From contig NZ_JAUHLN010000002.1 in the NCBI RefSeq assembly GCF_030412265.1, positions 310,001-374,000 of the forward strand: a DNA stretch of 64,000 bases. Direction: 5' to 3'. Origin of the DNA: Fictibacillus terranigra (lineage in GTDB: Bacteria > Bacillota > Bacilli > Bacillales > Fictibacillaceae). This document shows, piece by piece, positions 52,190-60,522 of this stretch (positions are counted from its first letter, which is position 1; each line of letters opens with the position of its first letter). A program made the translations under genes and the position numbers. The notes under the pieces are model-generated. The model was not told the DNA's origin and did no database searches. It saw only the letters and a program-made list of their open reading frames with translations.

Positions 52190-53482
52190 TCATGGATCTT
52201 TCTTGACGAGAAGCTCAGTTTGGGTTCCGGATCCAACTTCGCCGCACCAGTCCATTATCGTCAAAGTGATGATTACAGCCGCCTGAAAGATTTTATCCAA
52301 TTCAATATGTTCGTTCGGATAATGAGCCACAGAAGTAACACCAGGACCGAATACAATGCTCGGTGTGCTGCCGACAGCGGTTAACAATCCTCCGTCTGTT
52401 CCCCATGGCGAAGCTTCGATCACGGGCTCATTCTGACATATTTCAGTAAACCGGCGGGTCAGCAGCTTCATGAGATCATGGTCTTGATCAATGCTGCCCG
52501 GAAGCCACTGAGCTCCAAACCATTCTACTGTCGGGGGATGCTCCTGAAGCCATTCATCGTTCAGGCTTGCGAGACGATCTTCAAGCTCGTGCTTCACATC
52601 CTCAAGCGTTTCACTTGGAGCTACTCCTATTCTCCCTTCAATCACAATATGGTCAGGAACAGATGACGGCCACTCACCGCCTGATATTTTCCCTAAGTTA
52701 ATCGGTACAGGAATAGGTACACTTTCATAGAGCGGATCTGTAATCCTCTCATTTCTCGCTCTTTCAAGCTCCTGCAGTTCCTTAACAACAATCATCGTCT
52801 TTTCAAGTGCACTGACCCCTTCGTATCTTGTACCGCCATGAGCTGAGCGGCCGTACACGTTGACCCTGAACCACATGGATCCTTGCTGGCTCGGAAAAAT
52901 CTTCATGTTCGTCGGTTCCGGAATGATGGCTGCATCGGCAGTATAACCCCTGAGGATGGCAGCCAAAGTTCCCGCACCACCGCTCTCCTCCTCCATTACA
53001 CTGTGAAAAATAACATCTCCCTTCAACGGAACATTTAATTCCTTTAAACACTGAAGGGCGAGCAGGAGACATAGGTTTCCGCCTTTCATATCCGTTGCAC
53101 CCCTGCCGTACAGCTTGCCATCCTTGATTTCACCGCTGTAAGGATCGTTTTCCCATTGAGTGAGATCACCCGGAGGCACAACATCGACATGTCCGTTTAA
53201 AACGACGGAGCGTCCCCCGCCGCTTCCTTTTAGGACAGCAGCTACATTTGGGCTGGCGGAAAAATCTGTTCTCGTCGCACAAAAATAAGGATGCTGTAAA
53301 AATTCAGCTTCATCGGGATGCCAAACATCTACTTCCAGACCTATGCTTTCAAGTTTTTTTGCAATCAGCATCTGCACTTCTTTTTCTTTTCCCTGCTCGC
53401 TCTTTGACCGAACCATTTCCTGTAAAAATGCAATCGCCTCTGGTTTCTGTCTGTCCATCCAGTCTTGAACTTTCTTCTTCAT
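52190..53482 (-). CDS. yodQ: M20-family deacylase of the lysine/beta-lysine cluster (YodQ-like)
   Basis: 430 residues of the ArgE/DapE M20 type. Zinc ligands: NGHVDVVPPGD (His, Asp), GRGATDMKGG (bridging Asp), HSVMEEESGG (catalytic Glu-Glu) and the late His in VAHYPNEHIE. Deacylates an N-acyl amine; in this cluster the substrate may be an N-acetylated lysine catabolite. Order kamA-yokU-yodT-yodS-yodR-yodQ is that known from the Bacillus yod genes. Last gene of the run. Confidence 0.87.
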   Translation of the reverse strand: MKKKVQDWMDRQKPEAIAFLQEMVRSKSEQGKEKEVQMLIAKKLESIGLEVDVWHPDEAEFLQHPYFCATRTDFSASPNVAAVLKGSGGGRSVVLNGHVDVVPPGDLTQWENDPYSGEIKDGKLYGRGATDMKGGNLCLLLALQCLKELNVPLKGDVIFHSVMEEESGGAGTLAAILRGYTADAAIIPEPTNMKIFPSQQGSMWFRVNVYGRSAHGGTRYEGVSALEKTMIVVKELQELERARNERITDPLYESVPIPVPINLGKISGGEWPSSVPDHIVIEGRIGVAPSETLEDVKHELEDRLASLNDEWLQEHPPTVEWFGAQWLPGSIDQDHDLMKLLTRRFTEICQNEPVIEASPWGTDGGLLTAVGSTPSIVFGPGVTSVAHYPNEHIELDKIFQAAVIITLTIMDWCGEVGSGTQTELLVKKDP

Positions 53483-53502: not shown

Positions 53503-54165
53503 TTATTGAAAGGTTTCAATCTGATCGAGAATTTCCAATGGAGCGCCTGTTGATTTCTCCACTTCCTCAATTGTATAAGGATGCATTACTTCTCTTAAGA
53601 CAAGCTTCTCATCCTTCACATCTATGACGGCTTTTTCAGTGATAATCATATTCGCTCCCTTTTGCACGGTCAGCGGTAATTTGCATTGCTTTACAATCTT
53701 TGGATTGCCTTCTTTGTCTGTATGGTTCATAAGTACGATGACTTTTTTTGATTTTTGAGCGAGATCAATCGCTCCTCCCATGCCCGGCACCCGCTTTCCA
53801 GGTACGATCCAATTGGCGATGTCCCCTTTTTCACTGACTTCCAAAGCTCCAAGAACGGTAATGTCCAAAAGCCCGCGCCGGATGATGCCAAACGCTGTCG
53901 CACTGTCGAAATAGGAGGCTCCTGAGATCAAGGTGACCGGATATCCCCCTGCGTTGGAGAGGTTGCCGTCTTCTTTTCCCTTTTCCGGAGATCCTCCCAT
54001 GCCAAGAATTCCGTTCTCAGTATGAAGCATCACTCCATGGTCATTGGGAATGTAATCAGCAACCAGCGTCGGAATGCCGATGCCTAAGTTGACGATCATT
54101 CCTTTACCGATCTCAAGTGCAGCTCTGCGTGCTATTTGTTGTCTTGTTTCAATTCCCAAACCCAT
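53503..54165 (-). CDS. yodR: CoA transferase, beta subunit (YodR-like)
   Basis: 220 residues of the SCOT/AtoA type. The catalytic Glu is in LHTENGILGMGGSPE, and GMIVNLGIGIPTLVADY opens the domain. With the alpha subunit it moves CoA between acids, probably activating a beta-amino or keto acid made from beta-lysine. ATG 54165 is used, with GGGGGTGG 7 nt upstream, inside the end of the alpha gene (34-bp overlap). Confidence 0.9.
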   Translation of the reverse strand: MGLGIETRQQIARRAALEIGKGMIVNLGIGIPTLVADYIPNDHGVMLHTENGILGMGGSPEKGKEDGNLSNAGGYPVTLISGASYFDSATAFGIIRRGLLDITVLGALEVSEKGDIANWIVPGKRVPGMGGAIDLAQKSKKVIVLMNHTDKEGNPKIVKQCKLPLTVQKGANMIITEKAVIDVKDEKLVLREVMHPYTIEEVEKSTGAPLEILDQIETFQ

Positions 54166-54857
54166 TTCCAGTCCACCCCCTTGCTTTGAACGATATGATC
54201 TACGAATACTCCGGGAGTTATGACACATTCCGGGTCCAGTTCACCTGCGGGTACGATTTCATCGACTTCTGCAATCGTAATGTTGCCGGCCATTGCGATG
54301 AGAGGATTCGTATTCCGCGCGCTTTTATCGTAGACTAAATTTCCATACGTATCGGCTTTTTGTGCATAAACGATGGAAACATCTGCTGTCAGCGCGGGCT
54401 CAACCATATAAGTGGCTGAGTTAATTTCTACTTTTTGCTTACCGGATTCAACGACCGTACCCAGGCCTACATCCACTAAAATACCTCCAATCCCCATACC
54501 TCCGGCCCTGATCTTTTCAGCTAAAGTGCCCTGTGGAATAAACTCCACAGTCAGCTCCCCGTCGTGCATCTGTTTGCCTGCTTCAGGATTTGAGCCAATG
54601 TGTGAGGCGATAAGGCGGCTGATCCGCTTTTCGGTAATGAGCTTTCCCGGGCCGATCCAAGGGAATCCGGTATCGTTGCTGATCATGAAAATGTTTTTAA
54701 TATTGCGGTCTAGAATCGCATTAATTAAGCCAGGAGGCGCTCCGACTCCTCCAAACCCTCCAACCATCAGGGACATGCCATCAAAAAAAAGAGCAGCGGC
54801 TTCTTCCATCGTTATGAGTTTTGTTTTTGATGAAGTTTCATTGGTGCTGTACAGCAT
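54132..54857 (-). CDS. yodS: CoA transferase, alpha subunit (YodS-like)
   Basis: 241 residues. Family start SLMVGGFGGVGAPPGLINAILD and GSNPEAGKQMHDGELTVEFIPQGTLAEKIRAGGMGIGG match AtoD/ScoA-type alpha subunits. GGAGAGG precedes ATG. Forms the heterodimer with the following beta subunit and overlaps it. Starts 17 bp after the aminotransferase. Confidence 0.9.
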   Translation of the reverse strand: MLYSTNETSSKTKLITMEEAAALFFDGMSLMVGGFGGVGAPPGLINAILDRNIKNIFMISNDTGFPWIGPGKLITEKRISRLIASHIGSNPEAGKQMHDGELTVEFIPQGTLAEKIRAGGMGIGGILVDVGLGTVVESGKQKVEINSATYMVEPALTADVSIVYAQKADTYGNLVYDKSARNTNPLIAMAGNITIAEVDEIVPAGELDPECVITPGVFVDHIVQSKGVDWKWVWELKQDNK

Positions 54858-54874: not shown

Positions 54875-56242
54875 CTAGCTCGTTGCTTTATGAATCAGAA
54901 TTCCCGATGATACAAGATGGTTCATTAGTTCCTTCAAACTCTCATCCAATATTCTTATTAACTCATAGACTTGAAACGACGTGATGACTAAAGGAGGCGA
55001 GATTAAGACTGAATCGCCTTCGTAGCCTGTAACCCCTCCGAATGCTGGATAAATGATCAGACCTTTGTCGAAGCAAATGGAAATCAGCTTCTCCCCCACA
55101 CGATGGATGAAAGAAAATGGCGTATGATTCACGGCATCATTGACAAGTTCCAGTCCGCATAACAGGCCTTTGCCGCGCACATTGCCGACAAAAGGATATT
55201 TTTGTTCCAGTTCTTTCAACCCATTTAATAAACGTTCTCCCTGTTCCCCGGCATTCTGAACAAGATTTTGCTGATCCATATATTCCATGACTGAACAGCA
55301 TGCGGCTGCAGATAGAGGGTTGGCGCTGAAGGTGTGGCCGCTCATTACCACTTTGGATCCTTTTCGTATCACATTGATGATCCGGTCGGACACCACAGTA
55401 GCCGCCATTGGGGTATATCCAGCACTGAGCCCTTTGCCGAGGGTCATGATGTCGGGTTCAATTCCCCAGTGGTCAATCGCAAACATTTTTCCTGTCCGGC
55501 CCATTCCTGTCATGACTTCATCGGCGATGGTTAAAATTTGATATTTGTCACAGATCTCTTTCACCTTTTCATAGTAGCCTGGAGGTGGTACAATCGCGCC
55601 GCCTGCCGCGCCGATGATCGGCTCAAAAATAAACGCAGCGATGTTCTCAGGCCCCTCCTGCTCGATCGCACGCTCCAGTTCGCCAGCACATTCCAATCCG
55701 CACCCGGGGTATGTATTTTTTAATGGACATTGGTAGCAATATGGAGCCGGAGCGGCAGGGAAATCTTCAAGCAATGCCGAGAATCGTTCTCTTCTCTTAT
55801 GGTGGCCGGACATTGACAGTGCCCCGAGCGTTATCCCATGGTAGCTGGTCCAGCGGGAAAGTATTTTCGTTTTCGTGTGAATTCCTTGTTCCTGAAAGTA
55901 CTGAATGGCAACTTTTAAAGCTGTTTCTGTTGCCTCGGACCCGCTGTTTACAAAAAATGTCCAGTTTAAATCGCCAGGAGTGATACGGGCAAGCTTCTTT
56001 GCCAGCTTCTCTGCCGGCAGACTTGTAAAGTGTGAACGGTAAACAAAGGCAACCTGCATCGCCTGTTCATGCATCGCATCTGCAATTTCATCTACCCCGT
56101 GGCCTATATTCGCGGTTACGGCACCGGAGGAACCATCGATGTACCGCTTGCCGTTTTCATCATATAAATAGATTCCTTTTCCATGGCTGATCATGGGATA
56201 ATTGGCATCCAGCACCGGTTTAATAATTCCTGTTTTATCCAT
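54875..56242 (-). CDS. yodT: Class III aminotransferase of the cluster (YodT-like)
   Basis: 455 residues, PLP-dependent omega-aminotransferase. The Asp-x-x motif ILTIADEVMTGMGRTGKMFA and PLP Lys in MTLGKGLSAGYTPMAA are clear, with GSEATETAL binding phosphate. Likely transaminates the omega- or beta-amino group of lysine, beta-lysine or a derived acyl-CoA. ATG 56242 has GGAAGGAG 6 nt upstream. A hairpin (56268-56297) separates it from yokU. Confidence 0.9.
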   Translation of the reverse strand: MDKTGIIKPVLDANYPMISHGKGIYLYDENGKRYIDGSSGAVTANIGHGVDEIADAMHEQAMQVAFVYRSHFTSLPAEKLAKKLARITPGDLNWTFFVNSGSEATETALKVAIQYFQEQGIHTKTKILSRWTSYHGITLGALSMSGHHKRRERFSALLEDFPAAPAPYCYQCPLKNTYPGCGLECAGELERAIEQEGPENIAAFIFEPIIGAAGGAIVPPPGYYEKVKEICDKYQILTIADEVMTGMGRTGKMFAIDHWGIEPDIMTLGKGLSAGYTPMAATVVSDRIINVIRKGSKVVMSGHTFSANPLSAAACCSVMEYMDQQNLVQNAGEQGERLLNGLKELEQKYPFVGNVRGKGLLCGLELVNDAVNHTPFSFIHRVGEKLISICFDKGLIIYPAFGGVTGYEGDSVLISPPLVITSFQVYELIRILDESLKELMNHLVSSGILIHKATS

Positions 56243-56267
56243 GATGGGCACTCCTTCCATTCATGAT

Positions 56268-56298
56268 GGAAAAGCAACGGAAATCCGCTGCTTTTCAA
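56268..56298 (-). terminator. Hairpin between yokU and yodT (terminator or attenuator)
   Basis: AAAAGCAGCGGA / TCCGTTGCTTTT stem (G-U pairs) ending in TTTTCC. It may separate the kamA-yokU message from yodTSRQ or partially attenuate it. Confidence 0.55.
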
Positions 56299-56308
56299 TG
56301 TTGTGTAT

Positions 56309-56587
56309 TTAAAAGGATTTAAAGTAATTTTTCTTTAAGAACCTTTCTTGTGCCATCAATTCTTTGAACGTCAAAACCTGGTTCAGCTTTTTTGTATCAA
56401 TCAACATCAGCTGATCTTCGATTTCTTCTACGATCTCATCCTCATGATATTCCATACCGCAGGACTCACAATACACCGCCGGGATTTCTTTAATTTGAAG
56501 TGCCCGGGTGCCGTCGTGCAGTTCCCAGTATCCTGTTTTGGTAATGTCCTTCGCTGAGTGATCATTGCACCACTTGCATTCCTTCAT
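56309..56587 (-). CDS. yokU: YokU-family zinc-finger protein
   Basis: 92 residues. Two CxxC pairs (CKWCNDH, CESCGMEYHEDEI) form an MqsA-like zinc-binding N-terminus; the tail is helical. YokU genes are coupled to kamA in other Bacillus as well. Starts 12 bp past the kamA stop. Likely a regulator or accessory factor, unproven. No MqsR-type toxin is adjacent. Confidence 0.8.
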   Translation of the reverse strand: MKECKWCNDHSAKDITKTGYWELHDGTRALQIKEIPAVYCESCGMEYHEDEIVEEIEDQLMLIDTKKLNQVLTFKELMAQERFLKKNYFKSF

Positions 56588-56598
56588 GAGCGGGCCTC

Positions 56599-58023
56599 CT
56601 ATGCTTCTTTTACTGTGCCATCTTCTTGATTGGCTGTTTCTTTTTTCTGTTCATGTTTATATTTCTTTTCCTTCATTTCATCCCGTTTTTCCCGTTTGTC
56701 TTTCAATGTGGTATGCTGAGGGTTCGTTTCGTATGTTTTTCTTCGGTCTAACCGGTTTAAGCCTTCAGGAACGATATTGAATTTCTCATCTTTCATAAGC
56801 GCAGTAATCCCAATTGCTGCCGGCTGTTCTTTGATGCCCATGGTCTCGTTGAAATACTCATCCGCCAGCCCTGCTTTATAGTTTTGAGGTTCGGGATAGG
56901 ATGTAATAACTCCTTCAAAGTTTCGTAAAATTACTTTGTCAGGACTCTGTGAAATCAAATAATTAGGCTGAAGAGAGATTTTTCCTCCTCCACCCGGTGC
57001 ATCAACAACAAAAGTCGGGACAGCATATCCTGACGTGTGCCCGCGCAATGCTTCAATGATCTCCAGCCCTTTTGAGACAGGAGCGCGGAAATGCCCGATA
57101 CCTTCCGATAAGTCACATTGATAAATATAATAAGGGCGCACCCGAATTTTTACGAGATCGTGCATCAGTTTTTTCATTATATGCGTGCTGTCGTTGATTC
57201 CTGCAAGGATAACAGACTGATTGCCTACCGGTACACCGGCATTCGCCAGCATTTCACACGCCTTTTTGGATTCCTCTGTTATTTCAATGGATGTATTAAA
57301 ATGGGTGTTGAGCCAAACCGGATGATATTTCTTTAAGATATCGCAAAGGTTTTCAGTTATCCTCTGAGGGAATACGACAGGCGCCCGAGTCCCGATCCGA
57401 ATGATCTCCAAATGAGGGATTTCTCTTAGCCTCTTTAAGATATATTCAAGGATGTTGTCATTGATTAATAAACCGTCACCTCCAGAAATCAGGCAATCTC
57501 TGACCTGTGGAGTCGCAGCAATGTAATCAATGGCTGCGTCAAGCTGCTTTTTAGGTACACCCATGCCGATCTGTCCTGAAAAACGTCTTCGTGTACAATA
57601 TCGGCAATACATCGAGCATTGGTTGGTCACAAGGAAAAGCACCCTGTCCGGATAACGGTGTGTCAGTCCAGGAACCGGAGAATCTTCATCCTCATGCAGA
57701 GGATCTTCAAGATCATATTTGGTTTTCAGGATTTCCTTTCCGATCGGTACGGACTGCATCCGGATCGGACAGCGCGGATCATCCTGGTCCATCAGCCATG
57801 CATAATAAGGTGTAATATTTAAAGGAATCGTCATGGTGGATATCCGAACGCCTTCTTCTTCTTCAGGCGTTAAGTTCACGACCTTCTTTAAGTCTTGCAG
57901 ATTTCTTACCGTATGCGTCAGCTGCCAGAGCCAGTCATTCCATTGCTCATCTGTCACGTCTTTCCATAACTCAATTTCTTTCCAATGTCTTTTTGGCTGG
58001 TACAATCCATTCACGATAGGCAT
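56599..58023 (-). CDS. kamA: L-lysine 2,3-aminomutase (radical SAM)
   Basis: 474 residues. Converts lysine to L-beta-lysine by a radical reaction using SAM, a 4Fe-4S cluster and PLP. The cluster motif CSMYCRYCTRR (C-x3-C-x2-C) is near residue 137; GGDGLL and the PLP Lys region VDAPGGGGKISL are intact. A charged tail (DKREKRDEMKEKKYKHEQKK) of about 50 residues extends the C-terminus. ATG 58023 with AAGGAGGG 6 nt upstream. Driven by a consensus sigma-54 promoter. Confidence 0.95.
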   Translation of the reverse strand: MPIVNGLYQPKRHWKEIELWKDVTDEQWNDWLWQLTHTVRNLQDLKKVVNLTPEEEEGVRISTMTIPLNITPYYAWLMDQDDPRCPIRMQSVPIGKEILKTKYDLEDPLHEDEDSPVPGLTHRYPDRVLFLVTNQCSMYCRYCTRRRFSGQIGMGVPKKQLDAAIDYIAATPQVRDCLISGGDGLLINDNILEYILKRLREIPHLEIIRIGTRAPVVFPQRITENLCDILKKYHPVWLNTHFNTSIEITEESKKACEMLANAGVPVGNQSVILAGINDSTHIMKKLMHDLVKIRVRPYYIYQCDLSEGIGHFRAPVSKGLEIIEALRGHTSGYAVPTFVVDAPGGGGKISLQPNYLISQSPDKVILRNFEGVITSYPEPQNYKAGLADEYFNETMGIKEQPAAIGITALMKDEKFNIVPEGLNRLDRRKTYETNPQHTTLKDKREKRDEMKEKKYKHEQKKETANQEDGTVKEA

Positions 58024-58063: not shown

Positions 58064-58080
58064 TGCAAGTTCCGTGCCAA
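58064..58080 (-). promoter_or_regulatory. Sigma-54 (SigL) -24/-12 promoter of kamA
   Basis: Minus strand TTGGCACGGAACTTGCA (58080-58064), an exact fit to TTGGCAC-N5-TTGCA, 40 nt before the kamA ATG. A start site near 58053 is expected. The gene just upstream is a sigma-54 activator. An inverted repeat TTGC-N8-GCAA (58147-58162) about 75 bp further upstream may be its enhancer. Confidence 0.9.
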
Positions 58081-58146
58081 AAACAAAGAAACTGATAAAA
58101 GCACTTAGATCCGTGGATTTTCTGATATTGGTAATGTATGCGCCCA

Positions 58147-58168: not shown

Positions 58169-58196
58169 CAAACCGCCGAAAATCCGGCGGTTTAGT
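58169..58196 (-). terminator. Terminator of the sigma-54 activator gene
   Basis: AACCGCCG-GATTTT-CGGCGGTT with TGTTTATTTT tail; separates the activator from kamA, so kamA needs its own promoter. Confidence 0.85.
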
Positions 58197-59592
58197 TCCC
58201 TTTTATTTTTAGTTTGTATTGGAGAGTCTGTCTAGGTATTTTCAGGAGCTGTGCTGCTTTTTGAATATTTCCATCCGCAGCAGTTAGTGCCTTGGATATC
58301 AGTTCACGTTCCCGGTGAGCAAGAGCCTCCCGAAGAGGAGGAATAGCGGGGTTCTCAATAGAACCGGCAAGAGCAGGAGTTGCCTGGAGATGATGAGGCA
58401 AATCTTCAACTTTTATCTCCTCATGATCATCCGCCATATTCATGGCATATTCAATGACATGTTTCAGCTCCCGGACATTCCCTGGCCATTGATATTGCTG
58501 AAAAAGATGGAACGCTTCTTCTGAAAGTCCCTTGATTTGTCTTTTGAATTGAGCATTATATTGTGAAATAAAGTGCTGGCCAAGCAGGTGGATATCTGAA
58601 ATCCTCTGCCTTAAAGGAGGGATTTCAAAGAAAATGACGTTCAGCCTGTAGTATAAATCTTCTCTAAGCTTATTGCATTTCACACATTCTGAAGGATGTT
58701 CATTTAATGCTGCCATAATCCTTACATTGACCAATTTGCCTTGAACAGCCCCTATTCTGCGGACAACCCCATCTTGAAGAACCCTAAGTAGTTTAGCCTG
58801 TATGTCTAACGGCATCGAATTGATCTCATCCAGAAAAAGGGTTCCTCCATCTGCCAGTTCAAAAAGGCCTGGCCTGTCGACCGCACCCGTAAAGCTTCCC
58901 TTGACGGTCCCGAAGAGAATACTCTCCAGGAGCTGTGAAGGAATAGCCGCACAATTCTGGGCGATAAATGGTTTATTCTTTCGCGATGAATGATTATGTA
59001 TTCCTTGAATAAGAACCTCTTTGCCGGTCCCTGTCTCCCCGAATATAAGAACGGGTGAAGAAGTTTCAGATACCTTCCTCGACAGTGACTTTAACTGGCC
59101 GATCTGAGGATCATCTGATATAAAATCTTCTAACTGATAAGATGCATAATGGCCATTTTTGATGGTAACGGAACGGTTCTTATGAAATTGCGCCTGCATA
59201 TCAAGAAGCTTCTCAGACAACTGTTTTATTTTTGTGAGGTCCTTTGATATTTCAATCGCTCCGATCAGTTCGCCGTCAACGATGAGCGGCAGCGTCGTGT
59301 TGACCGTATCGACCCGCTTGCCGTTTACGTTTGTATAGGATTGATGCTGATTAATGATCGGCTTTCCTGTTTTGATAACGTTTAGCAATGTACTGGTTTG
59401 CTGATTTAATGAAGGAAAAGAATCTAATACATGCCGGTTTAGTACTTGAGAAACGTTTAAACCATCAAGGCTTGCGGCGACTTCATTATAAAAAATGGTC
59501 ATCCCCCTTGCATCCACCGCATGAATTCCTTCATCAATCGTTTTTAAAATCGCTTTAAGCATCTCAATCGTTTCAACCGAGTCTTTAAACAT
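58192..59592 (-). CDS. Sigma-54-dependent transcriptional activator (PAS-AAA-Fis)
   Basis: 466 residues. PAS domain (about 13-115, TIDEGIHAVDARGMTIFYNEVAASLDGL), central AAA+ with Walker A GETGTGKE, the sigma-54-contact loop GSFTGA (usual GAFTGA) and Walker B GGTLFLDEIN, and a C-terminal Fis helix-turn-helix (GNIQKAAQLLKIPRQTLQYKLKI). No receiver domain, so it senses a small molecule through PAS, like RocR or BkdR. GGAGGT precedes ATG 59592. Located between ablB and kamA, it very likely drives kamA. Confidence 0.92.
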   Translation of the reverse strand: MFKDSVETIEMLKAILKTIDEGIHAVDARGMTIFYNEVAASLDGLNVSQVLNRHVLDSFPSLNQQTSTLLNVIKTGKPIINQHQSYTNVNGKRVDTVNTTLPLIVDGELIGAIEISKDLTKIKQLSEKLLDMQAQFHKNRSVTIKNGHYASYQLEDFISDDPQIGQLKSLSRKVSETSSPVLIFGETGTGKEVLIQGIHNHSSRKNKPFIAQNCAAIPSQLLESILFGTVKGSFTGAVDRPGLFELADGGTLFLDEINSMPLDIQAKLLRVLQDGVVRRIGAVQGKLVNVRIMAALNEHPSECVKCNKLREDLYYRLNVIFFEIPPLRQRISDIHLLGQHFISQYNAQFKRQIKGLSEEAFHLFQQYQWPGNVRELKHVIEYAMNMADDHEEIKVEDLPHHLQATPALAGSIENPAIPPLREALAHRERELISKALTAADGNIQKAAQLLKIPRQTLQYKLKIKGN

Positions 59593-59625
59593 AGGCACCT
59601 CCAGTCTGGATCAAAAACAAGCTGC

Positions 59626-60522
59626 TCAATTTTCATCCGTAGTGCCGAAAATCCGGCAATAGTTTTCTGATAGATCTCTCATCCAGAGGTTCATGTCCTC
59701 GTATTTATCAAAAATCAGGCAATTTTTCGTAAATCTCCCATGATATTTATAGCCTCTTTGAAAAAAGACGGCATTCATTCCAAAGGACAAAGATCGTGCA
59801 ATTGAATAGGCACAAAATATTTTACGATTCTTCAATTCCATTTCGAGTTTTTCAATCAAGATTTTCATCAGACCAAATTTTCGGTGTTGAGGCAATGTGG
59901 CACAGTCCGTAAGTTCTGCATTATGATATTGCAGGTTAATATCCGCTGATGCAGCACTTACAACTTCTTTGCAATGTTCGATTACATAATAGATGGTTCC
60001 GTGCTCCATCGTCTTTTTAATATACTCAGGATCGTTCATTGGAGTAGGGTAAACTTGGAACACCTCCCCATATAAGGCGGCCAGCCCTTCTGCATCGTTT
60101 AGATCAGCTAATCGGATCAGGTAATTCTCCGGCAGAGAATATCCGCCGGATTTTATATGGGGCAGTTCAAGAATCTGATCGATAATTTTATCTTCCTCTA
60201 CCCAAAAGTCACTTCGCTTCCTCTCGTTCGTGTAAAAACGGCACATCGCAACAGCATCACTCCCATTGAAATACTGGCTGAATACCGCTTCCGGCAAATA
60301 TCCCAATGCCAGAAAGGCTCCGACATGTTCTGATCTCGCCTTAATGATCACTTTTGAGAAGTCATGCTGAACTGCCAGTTCATGAACCTCAGCTGCAAGG
60401 GCAGCAATATTCCCTCTATAGTCATCCACTCTCAATCGCTCACTAAAGTAATCCAGAAATATTTTTGCTGTTACGTCTCCCTTATTAATTTCTGTTTGTT
60501 TATAAAACGTATCAGTTTGCAT
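59626..60522 (-). CDS. ablB: Beta-lysine N6-acetyltransferase AblB (YodP-like)
   Basis: 298 residues, GNAT fold in the C-terminal half (LRLADLNDAEGLAALYGEVFQVYPTPMNDPEYI, DCATLPQHRKFGLMKILIEKLEMELKNR). AblB acetylates beta-lysine from KamA/AblA, giving N6-acetyl-beta-lysine, a compatible solute in some microbes. Here the deacylase and CoA transferase suggest breakdown instead or in addition. Ends 33 bp before the activator, so it is upstream of the sigma-54 promoter and expressed separately from kamA. Confidence 0.9.
   Translation of the reverse strand: MQTDTFYKQTEINKGDVTAKIFLDYFSERLRVDDYRGNIAALAAEVHELAVQHDFSKVIIKARSEHVGAFLALGYLPEAVFSQYFNGSDAVAMCRFYTNERKRSDFWVEEDKIIDQILELPHIKSGGYSLPENYLIRLADLNDAEGLAALYGEVFQVYPTPMNDPEYIKKTMEHGTIYYVIEHCKEVVSAASADINLQYHNAELTDCATLPQHRKFGLMKILIEKLEMELKNRKIFCAYSIARSLSFGMNAVFFQRGYKYHGRFTKNCLIFDKYEDMNLWMRDLSENYCRIFGTTDEN

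Follow-up and report, generated by a model that had tools for sequence, protein, structure and literature searches.

Expression of kamA, the gene for lysine 2,3-aminomutase, is assigned to the sigma-E regulon in Bacillus subtilis in the accessible text of PMC6957869, in line with the sequence-only reading of the present locus. A different mode of control has been described for B. thuringiensis, in which KamR and sigma-54 act on kamA (Zhang 2014, J Bacteriol 196:2934, as cited in PMC4428206). According to the accessible part of the latter report, the kamA promoter of strain HD73 is a typical -12/-24 sequence, TTGGCATAACTATTGCT. In a sigL mutant its activity is lost between T0 and T4 and lowered between T4 and T7; KamR activates it before T7, and after T10 the promoter is under the control of sigma-K and GerE. 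The link between sigma-54, KamR and kamA is already published. Two observations count against the model developed below. HD73 does not use lysine as a nitrogen source, with or without sigL (PMC4428206), so that a role of kamA in lysine-dependent growth cannot be taken for granted, and in B. cereus deletion of rpoN left kamA expression unchanged (PMC4524646, accessible part). The terms upstream activator, UAS, inverted repeat and terminator are absent from PMC4428206; a dyad may be described in other papers, and the candidate KamR enhancer dyad presented here is probably new.

The locus lies in a 64-kb window (the whole stretch of Fictibacillus terranigra DNA that was analysed) and resembles that of HD73 in having kamA behind a -24/-12 site, with the gene for a PAS-type activator upstream in the same direction. 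The gene order differs: in the published excerpt, kamA of HD73 and six upstream genes, the nearest of them kamR, fall into two operons, whereas here ablB and kamR are upstream and yod-like genes are downstream. The HD73 arrangement of six upstream genes ending with kamR, which is peculiar to that strain's locus and does not define this type of control, is not seen in this genome, and a search of 319 genomes of the class with the HD73 site sequence returned 0 matches. We take the gene following kamA in HD73 to be of yokU type. With B. subtilis the locus shares the enzyme; in place of the sigma-E control reported there, it has KamR and a sigma-54 site, and any sporulation-like element is weak at best. 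The Bacillus PAS-type bEBPs RocR, GabR, PrdR and BkdR have the same domain order as KamR, which is distinguished from them by a dyad with inner bases CCGA/TCGG; the PrdR model scores 396.3 bits on KamR, far under its cut-off of 795. RocR sites are TGC..GCA dyads, and when the surroundings of eight further activators in this genome were searched for TGC-N10-GCA dyads, two weak matches appeared, both at one locus (L005).

Genes and sigma-54 promoter of the kamA locus

All genes of the locus are on the minus strand, in the order ablB, kamR, kamA, yokU, followed by yodT-, yodS-, yodR- and yodQ-like genes; the last four names are ones that we assume from B. subtilis synteny and usage. The kamA (ablA) product (56599..58023) matches the lysine 2,3-aminomutase model TIGR03820 with 633.6 bits, against a cut-off of 525.4. 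The remaining assignments likewise rest on models matched above their cut-offs: ablB, yodP-like, for a putative beta-lysine N-acetyltransferase (59626..60522; TIGR03827), yokU (56309..56587; TIGR03829), the yodT-like gene for a class III aminotransferase (54875..56260; NF005375), the yodS- and yodR-like genes for CoA-transferase subunits A (54132..54857; TIGR02429) and B (53503..54228; TIGR02428), and the yodQ-like gene for an M20 deacylase (52190..53482; NF005373 and TIGR01910). Upstream of kamR lie ablB and a PHP-domain gene. In the intergenic region between yokU and the yodT-like gene, an imperfect inverted repeat, AAAAGCAGCGGATTTCCGTTGCTTTT (window 56270-56295, minus strand), was noticed by eye; it was not listed by the terminator scan, and it might reduce read-through from yokU into the yodT-like gene.

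The kamR gene (58192..59592, minus strand) encodes an activator composed of a PAS domain, a sigma-54 AAA+ domain (PF00158, 204.5 bits) and a Fis-type HTH (PF02954, 45.1 bits), so that the activator of PAS-AAA-Fis type originally read beside kamA is borne out by domain matches. Its Walker A motif reads GETGTGKE, its GSFTGA loop is a one-residue variant of GAFTGA, and its recognition helix is PRQTLQY. The nearest named relative, from Fictibacillus sp. FJAT-27399, is 93% identical.

The sigma-54 promoter of kamA is an exact TTGGCACGGAACTTGCA at 58080..58064 on the minus strand, 40 nt from the kamA ATG at 58023, as had been claimed from the letters of the stretch; the spacing of the -24 GG to the -12 GC is that of sigma-54 promoters. 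If the C of the GC is set at -12 by convention, transcription would start at about 58053 and leave a leader of about 30 nt. TTGGCACN5TTGCA has this single exact match within the 64-kb window. Matches with up to two mismatches number 6 there, against a mean of 6.66 in shuffled sequence; because such loose matches are at chance level, the argument for the promoter rests on exactness, position and conservation. In the 4.97-Mb genome the pattern TTGGCAYN5TTGCW occurs at 15 sites (3 for the reversed pattern), of which 9 have a sigma-54 activator domain no more than about 1.1 kb away. Absence of the motif from close relatives had been named as a result that would speak against the promoter; the element or a close variant is present at kamA in the 7 distinct Fictibacillus sequences compared. 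In view of conservation within Fictibacillus and across the order, a chance -24/-12 match was rejected. A second exact TTGGCACGGAACTTGCA is found elsewhere in the genome, on the minus strand and 646 nt from another consensus site (G000:C8:926499-926515 / C8:927145-927161); the activator search gave no activator-domain match within 30 kb of this copy.

Further upstream, at 58132..58140 on the minus strand, CATACATTA resembles a -10 element of the sigma-E/sigma-K type when compared with the sigma-E/K consensus. It is conserved in Fictibacillus and is accompanied by no convincing -35 element. It could belong to a mother-cell sporulation promoter that drives kamA late, in addition to sigma-54 and in the manner of sigma-K in B. 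thuringiensis (PMC4428206, accessible part). Such dual control is a real possibility to which we give slightly less than an even chance. It is favoured by that precedent, by the invariance of GCATA (5 columns, within CATAYAKT), which is the longest invariant run between the hairpin described below and the -24 element in the 7 distinct Fictibacillus sequences, and by the stable position of the element, 115-117 nt before kamA in the 6 Fictibacillus scanned, despite a gap that is about 90 nt longer in L013. The poor -35 speaks against it, as does a scan of the order in which sigma-E scores of 11 or more were barely above controls (10 of 96 loci, five of them Fictibacillus, versus 2 of 96 and 3 of 96 in two controls). 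These findings also bear on the suggestion that the genes form a vegetative catabolic operon: the gene set is indeed catabolic, but purely vegetative use is called into question by the conserved CATACATTA and by sigma-K control in B. thuringiensis.

A hairpin and a dyad at the end of kamR

A hairpin resembling an intrinsic terminator is located at 58169..58194 (minus strand) and includes the kamR stop codon. It folds with -16.5 kcal/mol (z -3.55) through 11 pairs and is followed by a T-rich tail. Alignment of the kamR-kamA gap indicates that the hairpin is kept in sequence, beyond mere pairing. Contained within it is a dyad of the form (G/C)TGCCGAAAATTCGGCA(C/G), seen here as CCGCCGGATTTTCGGCGG (58173..58190, minus strand), whose centre is about 128 nt before the inferred kamA start and which we propose as an enhancer bound by KamR. 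A second dyad, TTGCCGGATTTTCGGCAC (59642..59659, minus strand), falls within the 3' end of ablB, 49 nt upstream of the kamR start codon, and is a candidate site for self-regulation. It has a possible weak partner 20 nt away (59622..59639), the score of which, 6.5, is also reached by chance sites in the window.

The strict 16-bp core of the dyad, YGCCGRWWWTYCGGCR, is found at two places in the 4.97-Mb genome, namely window 58174-58189 and 59643-59658, and at none when read backwards. A looser pattern matched 8 places in the genome versus 6 in the control, which is near chance and counts against the model; the specificity of the dyad is therefore carried by the strict core. When the family was left out of matrix training, the two dyads of the window still ranked first and second in the 64 kb (scores 23.5 and 21.4, the next being 12.5).

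In the mechanism that we propose, KamR would bind the 18-bp dyad some 128 nt upstream of the start site and, by looping, contact the closed sigma-54 polymerase complex. Its AAA+ ATPase would then open the kamA promoter once the PAS domain perceives lysine or a signal derived from it. We infer that transcription from this promoter covers kamA and probably also yokU, yodT, yodS, yodR and yodQ. Through the second dyad, KamR probably limits or tunes its own synthesis. Activation of the kamA sigma-54 promoter by KamR through the dyad, together with self-regulation, is very probable judging from sequence. The activator had also been credited with a terminator of its own. Here the hairpin does fold well and has a T-rich tail, but it coincides with the probable enhancer, and terminator-like sites in the region are at chance level (5 versus a mean of 4.4). 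One sequence may accordingly serve twice, as a terminator in RNA and as an enhancer in DNA, which would make the locus a testable example of a terminator that harbours an enhancer.

The dyad in relatives and its relation to the recognition helix

For a dyad matrix, a single locus was taken from each genus; the 43 loci, among them that of the window, supplied 37 sites. Scores above 9 were reached in 77.5% of 102 regions, some of them near-copies, compared with 1% of the regions when reversed and 0.4% when shuffled (510 shuffles). At a threshold of 14, the 96 sigma-54 loci of the order contain 208 dyad sites (0 reversed), while 33 kamA loci lacking the promoter contain 0 (1 reversed). Six loci that are mostly copies of named Fictibacillus loci (L074-L079) stand outside the 96- and 33-locus counts of dyads and geometry, and inside the 102 regions and the 135 promoter controls given below. 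Of 48 class-level loci that have KamR or a promoter and did not contribute to the matrix, 43 carry the dyad, with 91 sites against 1 reversed; counting against the model, so do 3 of the 12 class loci in which no KamR and no promoter is in view.

An 18-bp form of the dyad, which the dyads of this genome do not fit (a point against the model), matched 22 of 298 genomes, in 11 cases within about 2 kb of kamA, with 6 genomes matched by the reversed control. A pattern one base shorter, used as a spacing control, matched 7 of 150 genomes, none beside a listed kamA place. The variant with outer bases K and M was found in 5 of 120 genomes, and in this genome and G031 the matches are in kam loci.

In 72 of the 96 loci the dyad lies within 360 nt before the promoter, with a median distance of 112 nt from its centre to the -12 element. 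No above-threshold dyad is seen within this distance at the other 24, some of which have one only before kamR; this counts against the model, and the enhancer there may sit farther off or differ. Of 90 loci, 70 have dyads before kamR. Where two of these are neighbours, they are spaced 20-22 nt apart in 32 of 35 pairs, equivalent to two helical turns.

A set of 56 more distant loci, mostly of Clostridia, contains 38 dyad sites at a threshold of 12 versus 2 in reversed sequence. Recognition helices were compared for 48 of these loci, L049 and L066-L072 being left out, and in 7 of the 48 no helix was read. All 12 loci with the helix PRQTLQY, as found in KamR of the window, have a KamR dyad near the gene at the same threshold. 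The helix KRQTLQH is accompanied by a KamR dyad in 2 of 13 loci and by a dyad of the TGCAAA..TTTGCA type in 12 of 13; 5 of the 12 PRQTLQY loci match the TGCAAA-type dyad as well, which counts against the model. No KamR-type dyad was found for the helices PRQTLHN, PRQTLHY and PRQTLQR (8 loci). The KRQTLQH activators with TGCAAA-type dyads represent a sister specificity of KamR-like proteins, and the covariation of helix and site provides a starting point for a DNA-binding code of KamR-type activators. Several of the TGCAAA-type dyads near KRQTLQH genes are at the gene start (the dyads are at L023, L031, L033, L036, L037, L039, L041, L046, L047, L048, L058 and L062).

With these comparisons it can be asked whether the dyad is merely the kamR terminator, its sequence kept through chance or through the commonness of such stems. 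The fold and T-rich tail agree with this, and a T run (at least 6 T in 8) comes after 39 of the 62 dyads that sit immediately behind kamR. However, the dyad is retained at the other 23 loci, which have no such run, and T runs follow just 3 of the 105 dyads located before kamR. The strict core is confined to this locus in the genome. The dyad is furthermore present where ablB is upstream of kamA (all 8 sigma-54 loci with ablB directly before kamA: L086, L093, L094, L095, L151, L152, L172 and L186), was found in none of the 33 kamA loci that lack the promoter, and varies together with the recognition helix. We regard a terminator alone as highly unlikely and reject it on the unique core, the promoter-linked distribution, the copies before kamR and the helix covariation. 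Overlap with a terminator is common among the dyads without being necessary, which would fit a constraint that acts on the DNA site. The reading in which the hairpin is both the kamR terminator and the KamR enhancer for kamA, the dyads before kamR close a self-regulating loop, and the dyad-helix code is common to Bacilli and to clostridial lysine-fermentation operons appears reasonably likely as a whole.

In both clostridial KamR-type loci that were annotated, L016 and L022, KamR is followed by kdd, kamA, kamB and kamC; L022 additionally has both lysine 5,6-aminomutase subunits. Lysine and beta-lysine are substrates common to both pathways and hence the best candidates for the signal. Our guess is that KamR senses lysine or a lysine-derived compound such as beta-lysine, and the same proposal in the sequence-only reading gains plausibility from the dyad-bearing KamR relatives that precede these genes at both loci. 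With the dyad, KamR regulons can be predicted from sequence, and a tie is made between Bacilli and clostridial lysine fermentation.

Distribution of sigma-54 control of kamA

A survey of the order found kamA in 152 of 299 genomes, from which 120 loci were sampled, each genus being represented by one or several. In 87 of the 120, an element with a score of 11 or 12 of 12 lies within 200 nt of kamA, with 68 at 12 of 12; none of 135 reversed and none of 135 reverse-complement controls reached 11. It had been suggested that -24/-12 conservation be scored together with the activator gene, and the two go together: KamR is in the stretch taken at 82 of the 87 loci with the element and at 0 of the 33 without. 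The 5 sigma-54 loci with no KamR in that stretch count against the model. By genus, 39 have the element and 13 lack it, 3 being counted in both. Among 398 genomes of the class, kamA is present in 143, a KamR match (E 1e-130 or better) in 121 and both in 117; this last is a lower bound, since a relative of KamR is encoded next to kamA in five genomes below the threshold (G351, G377, G389, G409 and G478).

The pathway had been thought to be rewired here, from an ancestral sigma-E pathway to sigma-54 in this lineage. The membership of B. subtilis kamA in the sigma-E regulon (PMC6957869, accessible part) is the observation from which such a change would be argued. Against it, the sigma-54 element or KamR is seen in 87 of 120 loci of the order and in many loci of other orders, and at least 117 of the 143 kamA-bearing genomes of the class have KamR. 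In a KamA tree with 185 rows (FastTree, midpoint-drawn, with many open forks), the state with no promoter, KamR or dyad in view occupies 42 rows and is scattered, with 19 changes. The tree argues against a single recent gain and gives no exact numbers of losses. Rewiring in this lineage is thus hardly credible and was rejected on the commoner sigma-54 state and its scattered absence. Control by sigma-54 and KamR is the commoner state of kamA in the order sample, with the sigma-E state of B. subtilis seemingly in the minority. In place of a lineage-specific event, a more general pattern emerges in which sigma-54/KamR control of kamA recurs in other Bacilli.

The promoterless, KamR-less kamA loci have a different operon order: in 23 of the 33, ablB is upstream of kamA and co-directional with it, often preceded by yodR- and yodQ-like genes (e.g. 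L084, L113-L116 and L147). Two kamA copies within a single genome, one with the element and one without, were observed at L100/L101, L102/L103, L104/L105 and L196/L197 (g25) and at L134/L135 and L136/L137 (g47).
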